This document shows, one piece after another, positions 8,872 through 30,942 of a DNA stretch of 32,618 nt. The DNA lies in the NCBI GenBank assembly GCA_947474435.1, contig CANJII010000039.1, forward strand, positions 1-32,618. Direction: 5' to 3'. The position numbers and the translations under genes were made by a program. Origin of the DNA: Chitinophagaceae bacterium (GTDB lineage Bacteria; Bacteroidota; Bacteroidia; Chitinophagales; UBA10324). Below the pieces are notes generated by a model that was not told where the DNA came from, searched no databases, and worked only from the letters and a program-made list of their open reading frames with translations. Every line of letters starts with the position of its first letter. Positions within the stretch are counted from its first letter, which is position 1.

Positions 8872-9402
8872 TCAGTTCTTTTCAATCGCCGCCACCAAAA
8901 CCGAATCAAACGGTTTCACTTTCGAGCCATAGTGAGCAATGTAATTTCCATGCTCATCAATTAAATATTTATTGAAGTTCCAGCTTACATCAGTTGTTTC
9001 TACTCCGTTCAATTCTTTTTTAGTCAGCCATTCATAAATCGGCGCCTGGTCTTTTCCTTTCACATTAATCTTCGCCGCTAACGGAAATGTTACACTGTAT
9101 TTTTCAGTACAGAATTTTTTTATCTCCTCAGCAGTTCCCGGTTCCTGAAATCCAAACTGATTGCACGGAAAACCAATGAGCACCATTTTGTCTTTGTATT
9201 TTTCATAGAGTTTTTCCAAGTCTTCGTACTGATAAGTATAACCACATTCTGAAGCCACATTCACAATCAGAATTTTCTTTCCCTTGTATTGTGCGAGGTC
9301 AATGGTGCCGCCATTCAGTCCTGCAACTTTAAAATCGTAAATGTTTTTGTTGGTTTGAAAAGCGGTCATCATCATTATTGTTCCAATCAAAAGTGTTTTC
9401 AT
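8872..9402 (-). CDS. Glutathione peroxidase family protein (thiol peroxidase, Cys type)
   Basis: 176 residues, with a short hydrophobic N-terminus that may export it. It reduces hydrogen peroxide and organic peroxides. The three family blocks are present: NVASECGYT with the peroxidatic Cys53, FPCNQFG with Gln82 and the likely resolving Cys80, and WNFNKYLID with Trp141 and Asn142. The Cys53/Cys80 arrangement indicates a non-selenium, thioredoxin-dependent enzyme rather than a glutathione-dependent one. It diverges from the pterin synthase gene. No clear promoter was found on its strand. Annotators often call this gene bsaA or gpo. Confidence 0.9.
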   Translation of the reverse strand: MKTLLIGTIMMMTAFQTNKNIYDFKVAGLNGGTIDLAQYKGKKILIVNVASECGYTYQYEDLEKLYEKYKDKMVLIGFPCNQFGFQEPGTAEEIKKFCTEKYSVTFPLAAKINVKGKDQAPIYEWLTKKELNGVETTDVSWNFNKYLIDEHGNYIAHYGSKVKPFDSVLVAAIEKN

Positions 9403-9445
9403 TTCTATCGTTTGTAATTAGTTAACAATACTACTCGATAATTTG

Positions 9446-9476
9446 TTTGGATAGCAACTTCTAATTTTCAACTTTG
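9446..9476 (+). promoter_or_regulatory. Promoter for the pterin synthase-EEP gene pair
   Basis: TTTG (9446-9449), exactly 19 bases, then CAACTTTG (9469-9476), one mismatch to TAnnTTTG. It ends 22 bases before the ATG at 9499. Confidence 0.55.
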
Positions 9477-21055: not shown

Positions 21056-22171
21056 ATGAGTGAAAAACCAATTCGGCAAGTTGTTGAGGAAACAGATATT
21101 AACTACAGCAATATTCTTGGAAAATTAAAAACCATTTGGAAATATTTAATTCGCAAATGGTGGGTTTTATTAATTGCGCTCATGTTAGGCGGTGGTACAG
21201 GTTGGTTAATTCAATATTTGTATGGAGTTAGCTATACCGCCAATTGTACTTTTACCATTCAAGGTCAGTCGGCTTCATCATCGTTATTAAATTCTGCCTT
21301 ATCACTTGCTTCATCTATAGGCATATCAGCTAAACCGGGCACCGGAAGTTATGATAATAATTATTTTGCCAATTTAATGAAGTCGCGCAGAATACTGAAA
21401 CAAACCCTGCTCGAAGATGGAATGATCAATGGCAAAAAAGATTTAATGATCAATCATTTTATTCATGTTACAGAATTAGATGATGATTGGAAAGATGATA
21501 AAAGATTAAGTGGTTTTAAATTCAAACACAATCAATTTGCAGGCCTTACCCGACTTGAAGATTCGGTGCTGACACTTTTATACAATTCAATTCTTGAGAA
21601 TTATTTATCGGTGACTTATGATGAAAGCTCCCCGTTTAATCAGGCGAAATTTACAACACCTGATTATTCTTTTTCAAGTAACATGATGCAAAAATTGCTG
21701 AAAAACACAAGCAACCATTACATCAATGAAATGTTCAAATTGAACAACGACAACATGCGGATTGCAGAAAAAAGAGTTGACTCATTGGCAAATGCAATCA
21801 GGGAGCTGGATGTAAAAGTTGCTTCTTTAAAAGACAATGTAAATAATGTAATAAAGCAAAGCGGTTTTGTTGCATTAAACGCAGCCATTCGTGATCAGGG
21901 TTTATTAAGTATTCAATATTCATCAGCAGTAAATAATTTTGAACTGGCAAAAGTTACAATGACCACCGATACTCCGATTTTGGAAGTAATTGACGATCCG
22001 CAATTTTCAACCGAAGTTTCATTTATACCAATAGTAATTGCTATTGCCGGTGGGGCACTCGGGTTTTTCTTTGTTGCTTTAATTGGTTTAGTTGCATGGA
22101 ATTTTATCGGTAAAACAATTGAAAATGAAAACAAAGCAACAAGCAATACTTCTGAACCTTTAATCAACTAA
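21056..22171 (+). CDS. Wzz-like polysaccharide co-polymerase, no kinase domain
   Basis: 371 residues. An N-terminal membrane helix at about 36-56 (KWWVLLIALMLGGGTGWLI) and a C-terminal one at about 322-345 (IPIVIAIAGGALGFFFVALIG) flank a large periplasmic part with helical, coiled-coil-like character near residues 215-270. This is the two-helix layout of Wzz/Wzc chain-length regulators. No Walker A/B or tyrosine-rich tail follows the second helix, so the BY-kinase part of Wzc is absent here or coded elsewhere. The tight spacing to the upstream export gene fits a joint role in polymer export and length control. Confidence 0.78.
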   Translation: MSEKPIRQVVEETDINYSNILGKLKTIWKYLIRKWWVLLIALMLGGGTGWLIQYLYGVSYTANCTFTIQGQSASSSLLNSALSLASSIGISAKPGTGSYDNNYFANLMKSRRILKQTLLEDGMINGKKDLMINHFIHVTELDDDWKDDKRLSGFKFKHNQFAGLTRLEDSVLTLLYNSILENYLSVTYDESSPFNQAKFTTPDYSFSSNMMQKLLKNTSNHYINEMFKLNNDNMRIAEKRVDSLANAIRELDVKVASLKDNVNNVIKQSGFVALNAAIRDQGLLSIQYSSAVNNFELAKVTMTTDTPILEVIDDPQFSTEVSFIPIVIAIAGGALGFFFVALIGLVAWNFIGKTIENENKATSNTSEPLIN

Positions 22172-22197
22172 AAGGGGTAAATTATTTATAAAAAAAC

Positions 22198-22943
22198 ATG
22201 ACCTTTTTTTCCGGTTTATTCAGTAAAAAAAAAACTTCATCAATCCCATAAAGGTTGATATTCATTCGCATTTTATTCCTGGCATTGATGATGGGGTGAG
22301 TACAGCAGATGAATCGCTCGATATTTTAACAGGACTTTACCACCTCGGGTATAAAAAAATTATCACCACGCCACACATTTATAACGGAGTTTATAATAAT
22401 TCATATGATACCATACTTCCGGGATTAGAAAGAATGAAAACAGTAATTAAACAATCAGGTATTAAGCTGGAACTGGAAGCCGCCGCCGAATATTATTTTG
22501 ATGAGTATTTTCTCAGTTATATTGAAAATGAAACGCTGTTGACTTTTGGCGACCGATATGTTTTATTTGAATTACCAGCCATGAGTAAACCACAACAGGT
22601 AGAAGATGCTGTTTTTGAAATGACTTTGAAAGGCTACAAACCAATTTTGGCGCACCCCGAACGCTACTCTTATTATCTGGAACCGGGATTTGAATCGTTG
22701 GAAAAATTAAAAAGCATGGGCGTATTATTTCAACTGAATGTGCTTTCACTTGCAGGTTTTTATTCACCAAAAGTTCAGAAGTTTGCCCATCAGTTAATAA
22801 AAAATAACTGGATCGATTGGGTAGGGAGTGATATGCATAATCATCGTTACTTTGAAGCGTTTAATAATGCAATTCAGAATAAGTATTATGAAAAACTTTG
22901 TTCATCAGGTCAACTTTTAAATAACACTTTAACCGAATTATAA
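22198..22943 (+). CDS. CpsB/YwqE-type PHP tyrosine-protein phosphatase, frame broken at an A10 tract
   Basis: The body (from about 22227 to the stop at 22943) is a CpsB/YwqE phosphatase with PHP metal-binding motifs in order: VDIHSHFIPGIDDG, TPHIYNG, EAAAEYYFD, LAHPERY and GSDMHNH. The first motif has no in-frame ATG. An ATG at 22198 begins MTFFSGLFSKKK, a typical N-terminus of these proteins, in another frame. It joins the body exactly if the A10 run at 22225-22234 had 11 (or 8) bases; as given, it ends at TAA 22249-22251. Without recoding, the only in-frame start is a GTG at 22296, which loses the metal-binding HSH. The enzyme dephosphorylates BY-kinases that control exopolysaccharide export. 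It overlaps rfbC by one base. Confidence 0.8.
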
Positions 22944-23515
22944 TGGCTTTTACTGAAACCGGATTTCCGGGCTTACTCGTTTTTGAACCAAGGATTTTTC
23001 GCGATGACAGAGGATATTTTTTTGAAAGTTTTAACTCAAATGGTTTTGCCGAAAAGGGAATTACCCGGAATTTTGTTCAGGACAATCAGGCATTTTCTTC
23101 ATACGGAATTTTAAGGGGACTGCATTACCAGCTTGATCCGCATGCGCAGGCAAAACTGGTTCGTGTTATTCAGGGTGAAGTGCTGGATGTGGTTGTTGAT
23201 TTGCGTGTCGGATCTCCAACATTCGGAAAACAATACAGCATTTTATTATCAGAAGAAAACAACAAGCAATTGTATGTGCCCCGTGGTTTTGCTCATGGTT
23301 ATGCAGTGTTAAGCGCTACGGCTTTATTTTTTTATAAATGTGATAACTTTTATAACAAGCAAGCCGAAAGCGGAATTTCATACAATGACCCTTCATTAAA
23401 TATTGACTGGAAAATTCCAACAGATAAAGTAATTCTTTCAGAAAAAGACAAGCTGAATAAATCATTCACTCTAGCGGAGAAGAATTTTATTTTCAATCCG
23501 GAAAATCCATTTTAA
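22943..23515 (+). CDS. rfbC: dTDP-4-dehydrorhamnose 3,5-epimerase
   Basis: 190 residues, usual length. It epimerises dTDP-4-keto-6-deoxyglucose at C3 and C5 to the rhamnose form. Visible are the catalytic His61 in RGLHYQ, QAKLVRVIQGEVLDVVVD with its conserved acid, VGSPTFGK, YVPRGFAHGYAVLS and YKCDNFYNK. The start overlaps the upstream stop (TAATG). RmlD follows 39 bases later. It is equivalent to rmlC. Confidence 0.93.
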   Translation: MAFTETGFPGLLVFEPRIFRDDRGYFFESFNSNGFAEKGITRNFVQDNQAFSSYGILRGLHYQLDPHAQAKLVRVIQGEVLDVVVDLRVGSPTFGKQYSILLSEENNKQLYVPRGFAHGYAVLSATALFFYKCDNFYNKQAESGISYNDPSLNIDWKIPTDKVILSEKDKLNKSFTLAEKNFIFNPENPF

Positions 23516-23554
23516 TGGTATGAATATTTTTTACAAATTGTATTCAGCTTCACT

Positions 23555-24418
23555 ATGAAAAAAACAATTTTAGTAACCGGAGCCAATGGACAATTAGGAA
23601 ACGAAATCCGAGCATTCGCCTCTCACTTTCCTACATTGAATATCTTATTCACCTCTCGAAACGAATTGGATATTACTGATAACGATGCGGTTAAAAAATA
23701 TTTTCCGGAGCATGAACCAAAAGCAGTAATTAATTGCGCCGCCTACACAGCTGTTGACAAAGCTGAGTCGGAACCGGAACTGGCCCAACTTATAAATGCA
23801 ACCGCAACAGGATATTTAGCTGATGCTTGCAGGCTCATTGATATTCCGTTCATTCATATCTCTACTGATTTTGTTTATGATGGAAATAAAACAATTCCGC
23901 TTTTCGAAACTGATGCAACAAATCCATCAGGCGTTTATGCTAAAACAAAACTGGAAGGTGAACAATTAGCATTGCAAAAACACAAGAAGACAATTATTAT
24001 TCGCACCTCGTGGGTTTACTCATCGTTCGGAAATAATTTTGTGAAAACAATGCTTCGTTTAGGAAGAGAAAAGCCTGAACTTAAAGTGGTGAACGACCAA
24101 ACCGGAAGTCCGACTTATGCACGCGATTTAGCTGAAGCACTTTTAAAAATTACTTTATTGTGTGAGGCGCTTAAGCCATGGGGCATTTATAATTTCAGTA
24201 ATGAAGGAGCCATAACATGGTATGAATTTGCCAAAGAAATATTATTGCTGAAAGGAATTGAAACACCTGTGCATCCAATTACAACAGCGCAATTTCCAAC
24301 ACCGGCAATGCGGCCTGCATACAGTGCGATGAGTAAAGAAAAAATTATTAAAACATTTGGAATTCGACCGCAACCATGGAAACATAGCTTGGAAGAATGC
24401 CTGAAATTGATTCCATAA
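23555..24418 (+). CDS. rfbD: dTDP-4-dehydrorhamnose reductase
   Basis: 287 residues. It reduces the RmlC product to dTDP-L-rhamnose with NAD(P)H. It shows GANGQLG (9-15), NCAAYTAVDKAE, STDFVYDG (103-110), Tyr128 and Lys132 in YAKTK, RTSWVYS and NDQTGSPTYARDLA. All are typical of RmlD. It lies between rfbC and the cysQ-like gene, which starts 3 bases after its stop, so the three are almost certainly co-transcribed. It is equivalent to rmlD. Confidence 0.94.
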   Translation: MKKTILVTGANGQLGNEIRAFASHFPTLNILFTSRNELDITDNDAVKKYFPEHEPKAVINCAAYTAVDKAESEPELAQLINATATGYLADACRLIDIPFIHISTDFVYDGNKTIPLFETDATNPSGVYAKTKLEGEQLALQKHKKTIIIRTSWVYSSFGNNFVKTMLRLGREKPELKVVNDQTGSPTYARDLAEALLKITLLCEALKPWGIYNFSNEGAITWYEFAKEILLLKGIETPVHPITTAQFPTPAMRPAYSAMSKEKIIKTFGIRPQPWKHSLEECLKLIP

Positions 24419-24421
24419 ATA

Positions 24422-25204
24422 ATGATAGCTGATAAAATTGATTTGAAACTGATAGAACAGATTGCACGCAAAGCAGGTGATGCAATTATGGAAATTTATA
24501 AAACAGAATTTACAGTGGAGATGAAAGAAAACAAATCGCCACTGACCGAAGCCGATAAAGTTTCTAATAAAATTATTCTGGATGAGTTGAAATTGCATTA
24601 TCCCGCTATTCCATTTATATCTGAAGAAACCAAAGCAATTGAATTCAGCGAACGAAAAACCTGGACACATTGCTGGCTTATTGACCCAATTGATGGCACA
24701 AAGGAATTCATAAAAAAAAACGGTGAGTTTACGGTGAACATTGCATTGGTTGAAAATGGTAAACCTACTTTAGGAGTTGTGCTTGCTCCTGCACTGAAAA
24801 AAATGTGGAGCGCAAAATCCGGCGAAGGTTGTTTTAAAATAAATGAATTAGGCGAGCGGATACAATTGAAAAAAGGAGTTGAGTTTAGCCGATTAAATAA
24901 AGTTCGTGTAATAGGCAGCCGCAGTCACATGAGTACAGAAACTGAATCTTTTATTCAGCAATTAAAATCAGAAGGAAAAGAAATTGACTTTGTATCAGCC
25001 GGCAGTTCAATAAAATTTTGCTTGCTTGCCGATGGCAGTGCCGATGTATATCCGCGTTATGCACCAACTATGGAATGGGATACCGCAGCCGGGCAGGCAG
25101 TTCTTGAAATTGCAGGCGGAGTAGTAAATGAAGCCGGAACTTTAAAGCACTTATGCTACAACAAAGAAAATTTATTGAATCCTTTTTTTCTTGCCTCGTG
25201 GTAA
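24422..25204 (+). CDS. cysQ: 3'(2'),5'-bisphosphate nucleotidase (CysQ)
   Basis: 260 residues, an inositol-monophosphatase-fold enzyme. It hydrolyses 3'-phosphoadenosine 5'-phosphate (PAP), the by-product of sulfate transfer from PAPS, to AMP. Visible are SPLTEADKVSN, ISEETKAIEF, the metal motif WLIDPIDGTKEF, GSRSHMS and GSSIKFCLLADGSADVYPR, then MEWDTAAGQAVLE. This last pattern is characteristic of CysQ rather than of inositol monophosphatase. It follows the rhamnose genes directly. Its placement in the polysaccharide operon could hint that the polymer is sulfated, but CysQ is also general housekeeping. The stop abuts the convergent arsR-type stop with no gap. Confidence 0.9.
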   Translation: MIADKIDLKLIEQIARKAGDAIMEIYKTEFTVEMKENKSPLTEADKVSNKIILDELKLHYPAIPFISEETKAIEFSERKTWTHCWLIDPIDGTKEFIKKNGEFTVNIALVENGKPTLGVVLAPALKKMWSAKSGEGCFKINELGERIQLKKGVEFSRLNKVRVIGSRSHMSTETESFIQQLKSEGKEIDFVSAGSSIKFCLLADGSADVYPRYAPTMEWDTAAGQAVLEIAGGVVNEAGTLKHLCYNKENLLNPFFLASW

Positions 25205-25552
25205 TCAGCTAAGCATCTCTTTTACTTTGATCATGTAATGCGCTATCCGTTCGTGATTGATTGTATATAGTATTTGTTTCCCCGTTCTGGTGGTTGATAC
25301 AATTTTGGCGCGGCGCAAAATGGCTAAGTGTTGCGAAGCCACCGACTGTTCAATGTTTAATTGCTTGTAAATTGAAGTAACATTTGTGGAACCGCTTTTA
25401 TCAATTACAGATAAAATGCTGCGGCGCAATTTGTGATTCATGGCCCGTAAAATGGCTGCCGCTTTTTTTGTTTGGTCGGCATTATAAAGCATGAATTCAT
25501 TAGGCATATTTTCAAAATCGGAAACTTGAATTTCCATTGGTAGTGTATCCAT
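25205..25552 (-). CDS. ArsR-type winged-helix transcriptional regulator
   Basis: 115 residues. The winged-helix domain (about residues 28-112) shows ILRAMNHKLRRSILSVI, then TNVTSIYKQLNIEQSVASQHL as helix-turn-helix and RTGKQILYTINHERI as wing, typical of ArsR/SmtB. No cysteine-rich metal site (such as ELCVCDL) is visible, so it is probably not a classical metal sensor. Related Bacteroidota regulators often have unknown ligands. The 25-residue N-terminal extension is acidic. A -7-like box lies upstream. There is no spacer to the convergent cysQ. Confidence 0.82.
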   Translation of the reverse strand: MDTLPMEIQVSDFENMPNEFMLYNADQTKKAAAILRAMNHKLRRSILSVIDKSGSTNVTSIYKQLNIEQSVASQHLAILRRAKIVSTTRTGKQILYTINHERIAHYMIKVKEMLS

Positions 25553-25580
25553 TAGTGTTTAGTATTTAGGAAGAAAGCTT

Positions 25581-25588
25581 CAAATATA
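25581..25588 (-). promoter_or_regulatory. -7 promoter box for the ArsR-type gene
   Basis: On the minus strand TATATTTG matches TAnnTTTG and ends 28 bases before the start codon. No clear TTTG -33 box is present at 19 bases (TATT is found). Confidence 0.35.
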
Positions 25589-25693
25589 ATTGCATCCAAT
25601 GTTTAATAATAAGTATCTGATCGATTTTATTAAAGGGGAATTTTGATAAATGAGTTTTTTGTTTCACGCAGCTAAATGTTTTATAAAAGTTTT

Positions 25694-25717
25694 CTGAAAT
25701 TGAAATATTTATTTCAG
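25694..25717 (-). terminator. Weak hairpin after gpsA, possible terminator
   Basis: Inverted repeat CTGAAAT and ATTTCAG with a 10-base AT-only spacer, 12 bases past the gpsA stop. Low GC makes it a weak terminator. The remaining 25553-25728 stretch holds only the arsR-type promoter. Confidence 0.3.
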
Positions 25718-25728
25718 AATTTTAAAAA

Positions 25729-26730
25729 TTATTTCAATCGTTCAGTCAGCAACCTTATTTCAAGTACCGGCGAAAATTTCTGGTACAGAATATTATAGGT
25801 TGCATTTGCAATGGGCATATCTACATTGTATTTTTTATTCACGGCATTTATACATGCGGTTGCATAATAACCTTCGGCAACCATGTTCATTTCCAATTGC
25901 GCACTCTTTACCGAATAACCTTTCCCAATCATATTTCCAAAATTCCGGTTACGGCTGAACTGAGAGTAAGCAGTTACCAATAAATCGCCGAGATAAGCCG
26001 AATCTTTAATATCGCGTGTAATAGGATGAACTGCTTTTACAAACCGTTCAATTTCTTCAATGGCATTACTGATCAGAACAGCTTGAAAATTATCACCATA
26101 AGCCAGCCCGTTACAAATTCCGGAAGTGATGGCGTAAACATTTTTAAGCACGGCAGAATATTCAGTTCCGAAAATATCATCGCTCGTATTTGTTTTCATA
26201 TACCGGCAATGAAGCCACGAGGCAATCATTTTGGCATTTGAAGCATCCGGACACGCAATTGTAAGGTACGATAATTTTTCAAGAGCCACTTCCTCTGCAT
26301 GACAAGGGCCGCTTACTACAATGAATCTATTATTTGGAACATCATAATGTTGCTGAAAAAAATCTGCCATCACAAGATTATCTCCTGGAATCATTCCCTT
26401 CACCGCTGAAACAATTACTTTATTTTTAAAATCCTGTGGGTGAAGTACACTTAAAGTTTCTTTCACAAACGCAGATGGTGTGGCAAGAAAAATTACATCC
26501 GCTTTTCTAGCCGTATCAATCAAATCTTCCTGAACAGAAATTAAATTTTTTTCAAAAAATATTGAACTGATATAACGGGAATTATTTCCGTGTTCTTTCA
26601 ACGATTTTCGAATCTCAGAATTTCTGATCCACCAATTCACAATGTGCTTGTTTTCGTTTAGCACCTTTACAAGCGCGGTAGCCCAACTTCCGCCTCCAAT
26701 CATTGCAATCTTTGGATTATTGTTTAGCAT
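25729..26730 (-). CDS. gpsA: NAD(P)+-dependent glycerol-3-phosphate dehydrogenase
   Basis: 333 residues from the ATG at 26730; a TTG at 26739 is also in frame but less likely. It reduces dihydroxyacetone phosphate to sn-glycerol 3-phosphate for phospholipid synthesis. It shows the NAD site MIGGGSWATAL, SAVKGMIPGDN, SGPCHAEEVALEK, a catalytic Lys in AVLKNVYAI, and DSAYLGDLLVTAYSQFSRNRNFG. All are standard GpsA motifs. It is a single gene, with 150 empty bases on its upstream side. Confidence 0.93.
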   Translation of the reverse strand: MLNNNPKIAMIGGGSWATALVKVLNENKHIVNWWIRNSEIRKSLKEHGNNSRYISSIFFEKNLISVQEDLIDTARKADVIFLATPSAFVKETLSVLHPQDFKNKVIVSAVKGMIPGDNLVMADFFQQHYDVPNNRFIVVSGPCHAEEVALEKLSYLTIACPDASNAKMIASWLHCRYMKTNTSDDIFGTEYSAVLKNVYAITSGICNGLAYGDNFQAVLISNAIEEIERFVKAVHPITRDIKDSAYLGDLLVTAYSQFSRNRNFGNMIGKGYSVKSAQLEMNMVAEGYYATACINAVNKKYNVDMPIANATYNILYQKFSPVLEIRLLTERLK

Positions 26731-26890
26731 AATTGTCAATTACCGAGCGAACATAAGTAAAAGGCAGGTGACACTTATAAATTGAATGAATTAATTGAAG
26801 CGAATATTTAATTAATACCAAAAACAACAGGAAAAAAAATATTTTTATATCAGTGTTTTCGTAAATAAAAAACTCTATTAAGATATAAAA

Positions 26891-27508
26891 TTAAGGTTTG
26901 GTATAAAGTACCTGTCGCACATATAAATTTTTTCCGACATGAATTTTCAATAAGTAAGCTCCCGATGGAATAGTATTATCAAGTGTAAATACTTCGTTAA
27001 TCATTTTACCCTGAACTTGTGGTACACGCGTTTCAATTAACTCCCCTTTTCGGTTTATCAGTTCGATTGATGTGGCGCCGGTTTGTGATAAAGGAATTTC
27101 AAAACTCACTTCAAAAACTCCGGTTGTTTGTTTGGGAGAAATGGAAACCAGATCCTGATAAGGGGTGTTTCTGTCGGCATTCGAATTCGATTTTTTCCTG
27201 ACTTTTTTAGAAATTAAATCGGCATCATTTAAAAGATGACTCTGATCTTCGGAGTGAATTCCGTTTTGAGATGAATTATTGTTAACCAAACTATCGCCTC
27301 TGTCAATATTGGGTGCTGAAAAGAGAGAATCTGTATTCTTTTTTTCATTTGCTTTTACATCAGTACTATTCGTCATATCCTGAGTAAAAACAAATAACCC
27401 CACAATAAGCGCCGCTATCGAAAGTCTGGCTCCGGTTAATTGAATTGTGCGTTTAACAGAAACTACCTGCTTAACTTTTACTGTTGTTTGAAAATTTAAC
27501 CTTCCCAT
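26891..27508 (-). CDS. Small membrane/secreted protein ending in a type IX secretion sorting-like domain
   Basis: 205 residues. A basic 30-residue start precedes one hydrophobic helix (LSIAALIVGLFVFTQ, about 29-43), then a polar, Ser/Asn-rich, probably disordered stretch to about residue 115. The last 85 residues fit the beta-sandwich of type A sorting domains: VSISPKQTTG, TGATSIELINRKGEL, TIPSGAYLLKIHVG and LYVRQVLYTKP. Such tails send proteins through PorU-type attachment to the surface. There is almost no cargo between the helix and the tail, which is unusual. The long basic leader is also unusual for a signal peptide. The final residues differ from the repeated tails at 27.9-29.8 kb. Confidence 0.6.
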   Translation of the reverse strand: MGRLNFQTTVKVKQVVSVKRTIQLTGARLSIAALIVGLFVFTQDMTNSTDVKANEKKNTDSLFSAPNIDRGDSLVNNNSSQNGIHSEDQSHLLNDADLISKKVRKKSNSNADRNTPYQDLVSISPKQTTGVFEVSFEIPLSQTGATSIELINRKGELIETRVPQVQGKMINEVFTLDNTIPSGAYLLKIHVGKNLYVRQVLYTKP

Positions 27509-27791
27509 GATTTATAGAATATCAAAGGCTTTTACTTAGGCAAACTAAAAAAGTTTTGAGGGTATATGAATAGAATATCTTGAAACATTCTATTGATATA
27601 TAAATACCAGTCACTCAGTGGATTTATTTCAAAAAAAGGCACATCCACTATCTTCATCTTTTATGGTTTGATTCGCTGATTTTTAAATTCACTGATTTGG
27701 TTTGCAATTATGCCGTTGAAGTTTTATAAAATAAATTTCTTAGAGCAACGACTCTCCTGCGTCAACTATGAATCAGAATTAACGCACATCT

Positions 27792-27815
27792 TTCCTCTCT
27801 TTAGCAAGGGAGGAA
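27792..27815. repeat. Palindrome TTCCTCTC...GGGAGGAA
   Basis: Imperfect inverted repeat around TTTAGCAA. It pairs as sequence type with the better one at 27856-27878 and may mark one end of a small mobile repeat. The 300 bases between 27509 and 27791 hold no gene that I can support. Confidence 0.45.
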
Positions 27816-27855
27816 TGCGAGATATAAACGATAGAGTTTTTTGTTTTGAAAAACT

Positions 27856-27878
27856 CCCTCCCATTTTTCAAGGGAGGG
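27856..27878. repeat. Palindrome CCCTCCC/GGGAGGG
   Basis: Seven-base perfect arms CCCTCCC and GGGAGGG with the spacer ATTTTTCAA, and further CT/AG-rich flanks. It resembles the partial palindromes inside the 333-base units (CCCTCTC type), so the elements may share an origin. Confidence 0.55.
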
Positions 27879-27926
27879 TGGAAATATCATATCCCGAATG
27901 TTAGTTGTGCTTGGGAGAGTTATAAT

Positions 27927-28318
27927 TTCACAAACCTTCTCACCTCCCAGCTTCCATCGTGCAGTTGAAGTTTTATAAAATAAACGCCTTCAACTCACCC
28001 AAGCACAGCTAACATTTAAAGTTTACTAAACACCCCCTCTCTGATTTCAGAGAAAAAAATATATCAGAGTTAAACAGGAAATCAAAGAGGGAATTGAAAA
28101 AACAATGACGAAAAATTTCTCTGACTGAAAAGTGTTTCCCTCTTTTTTTTCCAACTAAAACTTTTACTTCTGTTTATCGCTTGAAAAAAGAGAGGGTGTA
28201 AACGCTTTAAGTCTGACTGCACGCTTTTGGTGGGTGAGTTTATGTGGTTGCGCTACTCATTCACAAACCTTCTCACCTCCAAACTTCCTTCGTGCAGTTT
28301 AAGTTTTATAAAATAAAC
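27927..28318. repeat. 333-base unit, copy 1, with an extra tail piece
   Basis: Copy 1 spans 27927-28259 and is followed at 28260-28318 by a second copy of the first 59 bases. The unit starts with a stretch that on the minus strand encodes the last residues of a type IX sorting domain (GVYFIKLQLHDG, EVRRFVK, stop). In this copy the stop is TAA at 27920-27922. Next comes a 247-base part bounded by ACTCACCCA and TGGGTGAGT inverted repeats and holding two CCCTCT/AGAGGG hairpins. Copies 2 and 3 lie at 29095-29760. Confidence 0.85.
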
Positions 28319-28331
28319 TCCAGTAGAAAAG

Positions 28332-28352
28332 CCTGCCTGCCGGTCAGGCAGG
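28332..28352. repeat. Palindrome CCTGCCTG/CAGGCAGG
   Basis: Eight-base perfect arms with the loop CCGGT, between the stop of the kinase-like gene and a sorting-domain tail piece. Such GC-rich palindromes recur in many AT-rich bacterial genomes. Confidence 0.6.
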
Positions 28353-28361
28353 GATTTGAGA

Positions 28362-29029
28362 TTATTGATTCCTTGTTACGATGTCATCTATCACATGAAC
28401 ATTTCCTTCTCCGTCTTTTAATACATTGCGTGGTCGCATGTCTGCGACAGTGTATTTCCCATTTGTATAAGTGAAGTCCTTTGCTTTTTCAAACCCTAGA
28501 TCTTTCATAAAGGAATCTATTTCTGCTATCGTGGTCTGCACAACATCAGGAATATATTTTTGCTTTATGATGGGCTCGATATGAGGCGCTCTTTTTGTGC
28601 CTTCATTTTTCAATCCTGTAAATCCGATTAAATCATATTTGTTTTCAGGAAATACTTCGTTGTGGTTTTTAAGTTGCTCAAGAAATTGCATGACACTATA
28701 TCCGGCATTAAATAAATTGTTGGCTTTGTAAACAGTTCCTGTTTCTACATCGTAAGCTAATGTGTGTTCATTGCCTCCTCCTGTTAATGGGTTTCCAAGT
28801 GAATATAAATCTTCCACCCAAATATTATTTTGTTGGGCATAATCAAGCGCAGCTTTGTTTTCTACTTCCCGTTTTTCGTTTCCGGTAAGTGGTCTTTGCT
28901 GTTCCTTTTCTGCTGCTTCAATGCTTCTTCTAATGAAAGCGGATGCTTCTCCCATTTTTTTATGTAGTTCATTGCCCCTTCTGAATTTTTCTTGTGGGCT
29001 TCGCTGAAATATTTTCGTTCGTTCTCCAT
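28362..29029 (-). CDS. Small polyvalent-type protein kinase-like protein, frame broken at an A7 tract
   Basis: The body (about residues 60-220) reads NPLTGGGNEHTLAYDVETGT, VYKANNLFNAG, a stretch around LKNHNEVFPENKYDLIGFTG, HIEPIIKQKYI, DLGFEKAKDFTYTNGKYTVA and DMRPRNVLKDGEGNVHVIDD. This matches, from memory, the putative polyvalent protein kinase domain of phage and mobile-element proteins. Expected kinase features are a Gly-rich GGGNEH, a Lys in VYKANN, DMRPRN as catalytic loop and VIDD as metal site. The given frame starts only at a GTG (29066) inside the promoter. An ATG at 29029 starts MENERKYFSEAHKKNSEGAM in another frame, and the two join exactly if the seven-A run (28955-28961 on plus) had eight. 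It sits between sorting-domain tail repeats. Confidence 0.62.
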
Positions 29030-29038
29030 TTATGTCTG

Positions 29039-29069
29039 CAAAGTTATTATTCTTTGCGGGCAACACAAA
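29039..29069 (-). promoter_or_regulatory. Near-perfect promoter for the kinase-like gene
   Basis: Minus strand: TTTG (29069-29066), exactly 19 bases, then TAACTTTG (29046-29039). This fits both boxes of the Bacteroidota consensus and is the best promoter in the window. It ends 9 bases before the ATG at 29029. Confidence 0.7.
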
Positions 29070-29094
29070 AGGAGTTGTTGGTGTTTTTCACTCC

Positions 29095-29819
29095 TTCACA
29101 AACCGCCTCACCTCCAAACCACCATCGTGCAGTTGAAGTTTTATAAAATAAACGCCTTCAACTCACCCACGCACAGCTAACATTCAAAGTTTACTAAACA
29201 CCCCCTATCTGATTTCAGTGAAAAAAATAAATAAGAGTTAAACAGGAAATCAAAGAGGGAATTGAAAAAACAATGACGAAAAATTTCTCTGACTGAAAAG
29301 TGTTTCCCTCTTTTTTTTCCAACTATAACTTTTACTTCTGTTTATCGCTTGAAAAAAGAGAGGGTGGAAACGCTTTAAGTCTGACTGCACGCTTTTGGTG
29401 GGTGAGTTTGTGTGGTTGCGCTACTCCTTCACAAACCGCCTCACTTCCAAACTTCCATCGTGCAGTTGAAGTTTTATAAAATAAACGCCTTCGACTCACC
29501 CGCGCACTGCTAACATTCAAAGTTTACTAAACACACCCTCTCTGATTTCAGTGAAAAAAATAAATCAGAGTTAAACAGGAAATCAAAGAGGGAGTTGAAA
29601 AAACAATGACGAAAAATTTCTCTGATTGATTTATGCATCCCTCTTTTTTTTCCAACTATAACTTTTACTTCTGTTTATCGCAAGAAAAAAGAGAGGGTGG
29701 AAACGCTTTAAGTCTGACTGCACGCTTTTGGTGGGTGAGTTTGTGTGGTTGCGCTACTCCTTCACAAACCTTCTCACCTCCCAACTTCCATCGTGCAGTT
29801 GAAGTTTTATAAAATAAAC
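29095..29819. repeat. 333-base units, copies 2 and 3 in tandem, with a tail piece
   Basis: Copy 2 is 29095-29427, copy 3 is 29428-29760, and a third tail piece is 29761-29819, all with an exact 333-base period and no indels. Copies 2 and 3 differ by scattered substitutions. In copy 2 the inner part is bounded by ACTCACCCAC (29161-29170) and its exact inverse GTGGGTGAGT (29398-29407). Each tail encodes a sorting-domain end on the minus strand. Short open frames inside are incidental. Confidence 0.88.
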
Positions 29820-29978
29820 TCCGGGAGAAAGGGGTTTTAGATTGATGATTTTGGATTTGAGATTCAGTGAACCCGAAACTCCAAACCCGTAACTCGTAAC
29901 TGTTTTACCCATCAAATCAAAAACCGCAATTGTATTTATTGACTGCTGCGAACTGGTTATTGTTAACTCGCTGCTTGC
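29754..29978 (-). pseudogene. Decayed gene end: complete type A sorting domain without its protein
   Basis: From an in-frame stop (TAA at 29979-29981) to the TAG at 29754-29756 the minus strand is open for 74 codons and encodes a full type IX sorting domain: ELTITSSQQSINTIAVFDLM, GKTV, a stretch rich in Ser/Gly, LSPGVYFIKLQLHDG and EVRRFVKE. The first 10 codons include no ATG or GTG start. No matching upstream part of a secreted protein exists before the AT-rich gene at 30130, so it is a truncated remnant, not a gene. It is probably the parent of the tail pieces in the repeat units. Confidence 0.75.
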
Positions 29979-30014: not shown

Positions 30015-30129
30015 AAAAATTTTCTTCTGTGATTTTGTTTTGGAGAAAGTTAAGTTTGTGAACGCGAGAAAACCTGCTGGTTAAAACACACAGGCAAGGG
30101 CGCGGAGGAGAATCGCCAAAACACTAAAA

Positions 30130-30942
30130 ATGGTCATAGAAAAACTTTCTAAACTTTGGGTAGACTATGGCGGCATTAGGGTTAATCACTTAATTAAATT
30201 TTTTATTTTATTTTCATTATCAGGTTCAATTATAATTCTTATTAATGATTTAGGAGAGTATTCGGCAGCTAGTTTACAAGGATATTCATCTGCAATTACT
30301 GTAAATTATGGTGTGCGATGGCCTTGTAAAGCGGGTCCTTGTTTTACTGAATCTAATCACGACTATCCTTGTTTTCAAATGCATGAAATGAAAAAAAAAT
30401 ATTTCTCTGAAATTGAGAATAATTCATCTTTCCCTGCAAAAAATCAGTATGGAAAGTTGCTACAAGAAGTTCAAATAAAATCTCCTTTCCCTGCAAAAAA
30501 TCAGTATGAAAAGTTATTGAAAGAGGTCCATATAAAATCTGCAATAATTAGGGGGAGCGCTTTATTATCCGTCTTGCTTCTATCTACTATTTGTTTCTTC
30601 CTTATTTTATTTAATTCATTTAAGCCCGGCTTTTTGCTTTATCTTAATTCAGTTATTGCATTTTATTGGGTTATGGAACCCTGTAAGTTTTGTTTAAACC
30701 TTTTTTTTAATTCATATCAATCTCACGAATTTTTCATTGCTCAAGATTTAAATTTATCCTATCTATTTATTTTATTGATTCTGTCTACAATTGGAACTGT
30801 GGTATGCAGTTATATTTTTTTCTTTCGCATTCCGAAATCACTCAGAATTTCATTCCTATTGGCTTTTATTTTAGGATTTCCTTTCGGTTTTTTAATATGG
30901 TTCAAATTTATTGGTTTATTATTTTTTAAAGCCAATATTTAA
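30130..30942 (+). CDS. AT-rich multi-pass membrane protein with 19-residue tandem duplication, function unknown
   Basis: 270 residues, no recognised family. There are about five membrane helices: residues about 22-39, 138-158, 165-182, 207-228 and 240-262. A polar extracytoplasmic or cytoplasmic part at about 55-137 contains four Cys (CKAGPC, YPC nearby and later). Residues 100-118 and 119-137 are near-identical 19-residue repeats beginning FPAKNQY. The coding DNA is markedly more AT-rich than its neighbours and lies at the edge of the repeat region, which suggests recent acquisition. A hairpin at 30966-30998 follows. The start at 30130 is the first ATG; no good promoter was seen. Confidence 0.6.
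   Translation: MVIEKLSKLWVDYGGIRVNHLIKFFILFSLSGSIIILINDLGEYSAASLQGYSSAITVNYGVRWPCKAGPCFTESNHDYPCFQMHEMKKKYFSEIENNSSFPAKNQYGKLLQEVQIKSPFPAKNQYEKLLKEVHIKSAIIRGSALLSVLLLSTICFFLILFNSFKPGFLLYLNSVIAFYWVMEPCKFCLNLFFNSYQSHEFFIAQDLNLSYLFILLILSTIGTVVCSYIFFFRIPKSLRISFLLAFILGFPFGFLIWFKFIGLLFFKANI
30427..30540 (+). repeat. 57-base tandem duplication inside the membrane-protein gene
   Basis: 30427-30483 and 30484-30540 are near-copies, keeping the frame (19 codons each) with a few substitutions. This is an in-frame duplication. Confidence 0.85.

Follow-up and report, generated by a model that had tools for sequence, protein, structure and literature searches.

A structured quasi-palindromic repeat and duplicated gene ends at secreted-protein loci of one genus of Bacteroidota

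The 333-nt units described here join the end of a type IX sorting-domain gene to an interspersed, structured, non-coding, quasi-palindromic repeat of ~248 nt, the inner part of the unit, which we call E. We hold with moderate confidence that E is a MITE/REP-like repeat that is mobile or was formerly mobile, and that the gene-end duplications beside it have been multiplied by recombination in exchange-prone secreted-protein loci. The evidence comes from the anatomy of these loci, the covariation within E, related sites with and without E, copy numbers that differ between species, and the exchange of gene bodies at one locus.

The repeated units of the window

The window, i.e. the whole stretch of DNA analysed (32,618 nucleotides), is contig C39 of its genome (G000; 3.5 Mb, 98 contigs, 99.9% complete). 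Three 333-nt units start at 27927, 29095 and 29428 and align over the full 333 nt without indels, with a tail-to-tail spacing of 333 in every unit. A preliminary description had reported three copies with an exact 333-base period and no indels; the period is indeed exact, with sequences that differ pairwise at 16, 19 and 27 positions (92-95% alike). All the parts that it had assigned to the unit, a sorting-domain tail followed by an inner part with inverted ends and two hairpins, are present as well. Five full tails occur in the window, which translate on the minus strand as VYFIKLQLHDGSWEVRRFVKE and a stop with at most four residue changes, and the inner part is bounded by ACTCACCC and GGGTGAGT and encloses the two hairpins. 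The unit at 29423-29755 (minus strand) folds with z = -3.2, and none of 100 shuffled sequences was equally stable; for the tail pattern and the E-end pattern alike, the expected number of chance matches is 0.00. There were no Rfam matches over the gathering score in the window. Tail and inner part have diverged to a similar degree, a comparison that had been proposed at the outset: the E copies of the window differ by 8, 15 and 19 of 248 nt and the full tails by 3-10 of 67. Because the units diverge by 5-8%, it is unlikely that they represent an assembly duplication; the array may instead have been collapsed to fewer units in the assembly, since another E array of the same genome (C32/C69) ends two contigs.

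Read along the minus strand from 29990 to 27711, the locus consists of the orphan sorting domain with tail T4, W3, T3, W2, T2, the Kinase-PolyVal ORF, the second remnant with T1, W1, T0, W0 and a partial tail (Table 1). The window thus holds two sorting-gene remnants, each with its own run of E copies and tails, and the Kinase-PolyVal ORF lies between them. The orphan domain scores 33.1 bits against PF18962 (Por_Secre_tail), over the cut-off of 27, and the second remnant has no Pfam match; a palindromic insert, GCCTGCCTGCCGGTCAGGCAGG, at 28331-28352 inside this second remnant leaves its frame open. The idea that the tails could be attached to new proteins finds no example in the window, where none of the tail copies is joined to a new gene: the Kinase-PolyVal ORF ends ahead of the sorting-domain remnant that follows it, and by their coordinates the two are in different frames.

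Table 1. Features of the repeat region, in window positions; T, sorting-domain tail; W, copy of E.
Feature	Position	Strand	Basis
E copy W3, full length, quasi-palindromic structured repeat	29494..29741	+	194 bits against model R1 (W3 among its building copies)
E copy W2	29161..29408	+	192 bits
E copy W1	27993..28240	+	189 bits
W0, short degenerate E, hairpin loops absent	27753..27921	+	alignment; 19.5 bits, partial
Orphan type IX sorting domain, 74 aa, remnant of first sorting gene	29757..29978	-	PF18962, E-value 6.9e-8
Tail T4, end of the 74-aa orphan sorting domain	29756-29822	-	stop just below 29757
Tail copy T3, between W2 and W3	29423..29489	-	tail sequence
Tail copy T2, far end of first array	29090..29156	-	tail sequence
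Kinase-PolyVal ORF, 234 aa, GTG start, between two tails	28362..29066	-	PF18762, E-value 5.7e-23
Second sorting-domain remnant, 37 codons, with palindromic insert, ends in T1	28256..28366	-	reading frame
Tail T1, end of second remnant	28255-28321	-	tail sequence
Tail copy T0, between W1 and W0	27922..27988	-	tail sequence
Sixth tail, partial, without stop, behind W0	27711..27735	-	pattern and flank comparison

Next to this region, a leader repeat of ~85-95 nt (window 30036-30129), which begins with GTTAAGTTTGTGA and ends near CAACACACTAAAAA, stands directly before a 270-aa ORF (30130-30942). The same repeat precedes small orphan ORFs on C83 (three times, one of them partial) and C60 and is present in 1.5 tandem copies on C25, and it may mark a kind of gene cassette. 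Inside the 270-aa ORF lies a 57-nt tandem repeat (30428-30540; two copies, 85% matches).

Structure and distribution of the repeat

When one unit plus the next tail was searched against its own genome, the inner part was found on C4, C32, C69, C5, C24 and C64; three more sorting-gene ends matched through their tail only, at 77-83% identity. The earlier caveat that copies might be found only here can therefore be set aside, as they exist elsewhere. With a sequence-only model built from 12 copies, and 150 of 4126 first-look candidates scored, so that weaker relatives may be missed, the genome holds at least 11 full-length copies of E: three on C39, two each on C4, C32 and C5, and one each on C69 and C24. 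C32 and C69 are the two ends of one array, their outer flanks being reverse complements, and the full copies occupy five loci, with a truncated copy on C64 as a sixth. Omitted from the counts are weak model matches on C36, C21 and C61 (E-values 0.003-0.01), a copy cut by a contig end (C69:9766) and a copy at the start of G002:C203 that has no left flank.

We call E quasi-palindromic because all 11 full copies match over their full length on both strands. Its length is 233-254 nt in 23 aligned copies, within the 50-1000 bp of MITEs, and it has terminal inverted repeats, with the outer stem paired in 98.1% of cells. The two long hairpins and the outer ends covary in the alignment, where 96.5% of cells are paired; double-changed cells in the stems number 53, against 14.8 in shuffles (reached in none of 500) and 6-11 when the structure is slid. 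One of five covariation measures, further pair types, does not rise above the shuffles (19 vs 19.3; 360 of 500), and the test used the alignment from which the structure had itself been derived, which favours that structure. Copies are 84-98% alike within a locus and 53-80% alike between loci, and mostly group by locus; an exception is C4a, which is placed with the copy of this locus in G004 and apart from its neighbour C4b.

Among the 40 genomes scanned, own genome included, E is present in three of the five other congeners (G002, G004 and G005) and in none of ten further genomes of the family, and the 24 genomes of the order gave two weak matches (E-values 1.4e-4 and 5.2e-4). A GTDB-wide scan for the pattern of the left end and first hairpin of E returned 12 loci, of which seven are attributed to the same three congeners; the other five, in unrelated phyla, are taken as chance. 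No E was found in phages or plasmids (blastn), or in the viral contigs of IMG/VR (pattern). E has so far been found in one genus only, with no convincing copy outside it.

Two further features adjoin E copies or resemble their surroundings. A DUF559 endonuclease-like gene lies beside E at two loci in three genomes (L065 on C69, ~9090-9470; L057, from ~5494; L055, 216-602), with a Pfam E-value of 2.4e-26 at L055 and the other two judged by eye from the start of the gene. On C64 of the own genome (L067, 10062-11057), a repeat of ~114 nt occurs three times, 483 and 399 nt apart from start to start with short other DNA between, and its end resembles, by eye, the duplicated flank of the C5 array.

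Duplicated gene ends and exchanged gene bodies

To describe the surroundings of E, we compared 120 nt on each side of 28 copies, full and partial, of which 27 were testable, one having no left flank. Direct similarity of the two flanks exceeded that in all 200 shuffles at 16 of the 27 copies: four in the window, two each on C4 and C5, one on C24, G4_C5, three at G2_456, G2_203b, G5_C58 and, marginally, G2_203a (30 vs 27). These 16 are not independent, as C4 and G4_C5, and likewise C24 and G2_456, are the same loci in two species. The duplicated flank is 25-86 nt long and, at all copies but those of C5, W0 and G2_203a, extends to the stop codon of the preceding gene. The genes whose ends are duplicated are sorting genes or their remnants in the window and at C4, C24, G4_C5 and G2_456, and a 122-aa protein with no Pfam match over the cut-off at G2_203b and G5_C58, in two congeners; at C5 the E copies with flank duplicates lie in an intergenic site. 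The duplicated flank is absent at 11 of the 27 copies (C32a, C32b, C69a, C64, G4_C35, G2_C269, G2_255, three at G4_C2, and G5_C49).

The expectation that copies sit at the ends of sorting genes holds for five of the six own-genome loci, where E lies behind a sorting gene or remnant (C39, C4, C32, C24, C64); it fails at C5 and at the non-sorting gene of the congeners. The genome has at least 150 sorting-domain matches, and we estimate that sorting genes make up ~5-10% of its genes, a base rate that is high yet far under five in six. At all six loci E starts at most ~50 nt past a stop codon, and in the congeners some copies lie far from a stop codon or near a 5' end. General duplication of sorting tails was rejected: none of 40 sampled sorting genes has an orphan tail copy downstream, and the single tail-like copy found ends another ORF. 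Among 491 ORF ends (ORFs of at least 90 aa, in 69 sequences leaning to E loci), orphan end copies of at least 35 nt occur only at E loci, at the syntenic locus of G002 and at the MBOAT gene by the C4 array; two further matches were judged to be spurious ORFs, one antisense in the window and one running backwards through the G2_203b repeat. At C5, the orthologous gene is present in G002 and G003, and the DNA downstream of it does not align. The earlier view of the sorting tail as the amplified agent does not survive these results: the dispersed family is E, duplicates also occur at a non-sorting gene and at the intergenic C5 site, 11 of 27 copies have no duplicate, and orphan tails are seen at none of 40 sorting genes.

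The duplicated ends are of more than one type. In the 122-aa family, genes end in DWLKEVV in G003 (two genes) and G005 (two genes), and MLKEIL is found in the copy behind E in G005 and in both the gene end and its copy in G002. In G005 the copy behind E ends in MLKEILLKK like the G002 gene, whereas the gene itself ends in DWLKEVVGKK, the two ends being 69% alike. The segment on the far side of E is thus not necessarily copied from the end that the gene has now. The window tails might show mixed types too, judging by the codon pairs AGA AGG vs AGG CGG in T4 and T2/T3. Coding constraint on the end copies was dropped as an argument, the substitution statistics being mixed: three pairs with far copies gave P = 0.013, 0.035 and 0.42 and other pairs 0.0033 to 1, in weak tests on hand-picked pairs. 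T4 and T1 differ by no synonymous and four other changes, and the far C4 end copy of G004 differs in two adjacent codons and at one position elsewhere.

The locus of the window can be followed in congeners. Its peptidase side is 94-95% alike in G002, G003 and G004, and positions 22001-27700 of the window do not align with the stretches compared from these three genomes. G002 has an intact 799-aa sorting gene (PF18962) here, followed by end copies of ~80, 210 and 105 bp. The first two ends enclose an Unstab_antitox/ParE pair and the next two a PIN-domain gene, and a weak remnant of E (13.8 bits, E-value 0.002) also lies behind the sorting gene. G003 and G004 each retain one sorting-domain end, with the rest of the gene missing and E absent; beside the lone end of G003 runs a series of 21-nt iteron-like repeats (L101, 8932-9152).

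The exchange of gene bodies is clearest behind a conserved MBOAT gene (the C4 locus), where G000, G002, G003 and G004 carry a sorting gene with a related sorting domain. Between G002 and G004 the sorting domain is 93% identical over 285 nt and the 59 nt around the start 81% identical, and outside the sorting domain blastp finds no match (E-value up to 0.01). Similarity runs along the length of the G003 and G004 genes (36%), and those of G000 and G002 are distantly related (34% over 299 aa). The start region is common to G002, G003 and G004, as well as a fragment in G001, and is not shared by G000; G001 has only start-like and tail-like fragments. The counts here are two E copies and three ends in G000, one E and two ends in G004, and a single end with no E in G002 and in G003. 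Past the sorting gene, the DNA of G000, G002 and G004 differs, and that of G001 and G003 agrees over 4.7 kb. The C32 locus has the same neighbours in G000 and G004, but the gene body of 2 kb present in G000 is missing from G004, where the sorting domain and E are present. Thus gene bodies have been exchanged or lost while the sorting domain was kept, by exchange at the C4/MBOAT locus and as truncations at the window locus and C32. This exchange of bodies involves the sorting domain as a whole (about 77-94 aa), not the ~22-aa tail of the 333-nt unit. The proposal that gene ends serve as recombination joints therefore stands in part: a sorting domain 93% alike on bodies without detectable similarity at C4, the tails that flank toxin-antitoxin genes in G002 and the mixed end types agree with it, but the joint would be the domain and not the tail.

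The MBOAT gene of G000 itself has its last 78 nt present twice. Between the two ends lies a basic 57-aa ORF (MKKRIELDVDTIGEQGRG...; L063, 8546-8719, on G000:C4) that has no Pfam match. Four synonymous changes and a different stop codon separate the two ends, and of the two it is the far copy that lies closer to G002, G004 and G005 (2 vs 6 differences). Both copies share a CAA codon that is absent from all five congeners, and this speaks for their local origin.

Origin of the units

To account for these patterns, we propose that E is a non-coding, non-autonomous element, mobile or formerly mobile, whose arrival, or a later recombination, would leave a copy of the last few dozen nt of a gene on the far side, so that the gene keeps an intact end and E comes to lie between direct repeats. 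The duplication may have been made by the insertion itself, as reported for IS1549/IS1634, or carried in by homology with a related gene end. Homologous recombination between the duplicated ends, and between E copies, would then multiply units of gene end and E into arrays, and the same recombination would also remove E and swap end types; we infer array growth, removal and swaps because copy numbers differ between species and end types are mixed. If E has a role, it might be that of a hairpin-forming 3' UTR kept by selection, as its covariation suggests. Several observations count against this explanation. The search of the Y1/RAYT and IS1634 families gave no enzyme with E ends; E copies of different loci are only 53-80% alike, so that no recent jumping is seen; the association with sorting genes is based on six loci, and the genome has at least 150 sorting domains; 11 of 27 copies have no duplicated flank, and in congeners some copies are not close to a stop codon; at C4, C4a is placed with the copy from G004; and the measure of further pair types is flat.

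Somewhat unlikely, in our judgement, is plain transposition with long, variable target duplications as in IS1634/IS1549, in which E inserts near the 3' end of a gene and a staggered cut duplicates a few dozen bp, without any need for homology. This would explain why duplicated loci have n copies of E per n+1 ends, why ends are alike within a locus (85-96% at most loci) when other ends match the window tail at only 77-83% (n = 3), the sites with one end and no E, and the CAA codon shared by the MBOAT ends, and it has a precedent in the repeats of 8-514 bp reported for IS1549/IS1634 (PMC2266710). Yet the end copies are not simply decayed (MLKEILLKK vs DWLKEVVGKK in G005; the far C4 copy of G004), E starts close behind stop codons more regularly than random insertion suggests, and no transposase with E ends was found. 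Alternatively, the arrays could be remnants of tandem paralogous sorting genes, each end of which had its own E, with the bodies deleted and ends and E left. Tandem sorting genes each followed by E do occur in G002 (L054), the window locus of G002 has an intact gene followed by end fragments of ~80, 210 and 105 bp, and lone sorting-domain ends remain there in G000, G003 and G004. Random deletions should leave longer and ragged pieces, but the piece behind E is only 25-86 nt long and E is intact to its end, and the intergenic C5 case is unexplained, which makes this origin improbable.

We consider it very improbable that the tails are amplified as an adaptive device, i.e. as handles that attach sorting tails to new proteins: a sorting domain is kept on different bodies at one locus, and tails flank toxin-antitoxin genes in G002, but the same anatomy is seen at a non-sorting gene, fusions of tail copy and ORF are absent in the window, none of 40 other sorting genes has an orphan tail, and the exchanged joint is the whole domain rather than the tail unit. 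That E is chiefly an RNA element (a terminator or mRNA-stabilising 3' UTR) spread by gene duplication, not mobility, is barely credible, for the covariation of its stems, its position behind stop codons at many loci and its clustering by locus are set against its occurrence in distinctly different surroundings, intergenic in one case and near 5' ends in others, and a quasi-palindrome that reads on both strands.

A more general reading, doubtful though possible, is homology-anchored addition of cargo behind genes. Cargo such as E, a toxin-antitoxin pair or a small ORF would enter with a copy of the 3' end of the host gene; the gene would be restored and its old end left behind the cargo, repeats of the process would build end-cargo-end arrays, and secreted-protein genes would swap bodies at the same joints while the sorting domain stays constant. 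Beyond E, this anatomy is seen at the C4 locus, where the MBOAT gene has an end, the 57-aa ORF and a second end.

Comparison with known systems places E as a new MITE/REP-like variant, not a proven MITE. As to target-site duplication, a MITE trait, the testable copies are divided: 16 of 27, one of them marginally, have duplicates that are long and of variable length, and 11 have none. REP sequences and REPINs are palindromic hairpins that occur outside genes and in arrays, and their RAYTs are Y1 transposases; E shares the palindromic structure, the position outside genes and the arrays, and differs in its length of ~248 nt and its outer inverted ends. No enzyme with E ends was found among the Y1/RAYT and IS1634 families searched. 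An origin from a RAYT/REPIN system was rejected: the three Y1 transposase matches are on C23, C83 and C60, where flanks read by eye, and the 150 of 4126 candidates scored, gave no E. Rejected likewise was an IS1634 origin, as no transposase over the cut-off was found in six genomes; the inverted ends of the two weak matches are different ones, and their stretch lacks the E-end motif. IS1634/IS1549 elements are 1.5-2 kb long and carry a DDE transposase, which E lacks, and the ends of the nearest transposase here are different.

The MITEs of Porphyromonas gingivalis, namely BrickBuilt, MITEPgRS, MITE239 and MITE700 (PMC4596501), resemble E in being small and non-coding, with inverted ends, in a host of the Bacteroidota. 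That study reports that five of 19 BrickBuilt copies lie beside genes with a sorting domain (PorSS CTD), and that in W83 MITEs accompany 29% of these genes (PMC4596501); MITEs beside sorting-domain genes are thus already on record in P. gingivalis, and the neighbourhood is not new. BrickBuilt is described there with a minisatellite core of 23 nt, ends like those of IS5 and short duplications, printed as 2-5 letters (PMC4596501), whereas E has paired covarying hairpins, other ends and flank duplicates of 25-86 nt. In the Neisseria tpsA/tpsC islands, partial 3' gene copies with interleaved small ORFs follow a secreted-protein gene (PMC3848433). The tpsC cassettes described there carry variable toxin ends, whereas the window tails are near-identical and only ~21 codons long, and we rejected a silent-cassette (tpsC-like) system because the full window tails differ by only 3-10 of 67 nt and few residues. 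Neither E itself nor the gene-end duplications of this genus were met in searches of the open-licence literature.

Long variable direct repeats of 8-514 bp at insertion sites of IS1634/IS1549 had no mechanistic model as of 2008 (PMC2266710). The genus studied here bears on such duplications: it offers a set of E copies in which what is duplicated is mostly the end of a gene, and related genomes in which sites have or lack E. The C4/MBOAT locus, in turn, is a concrete case of body exchange under a conserved sorting domain, and makes it a testable question how repertoires of type IX cargo are put together.
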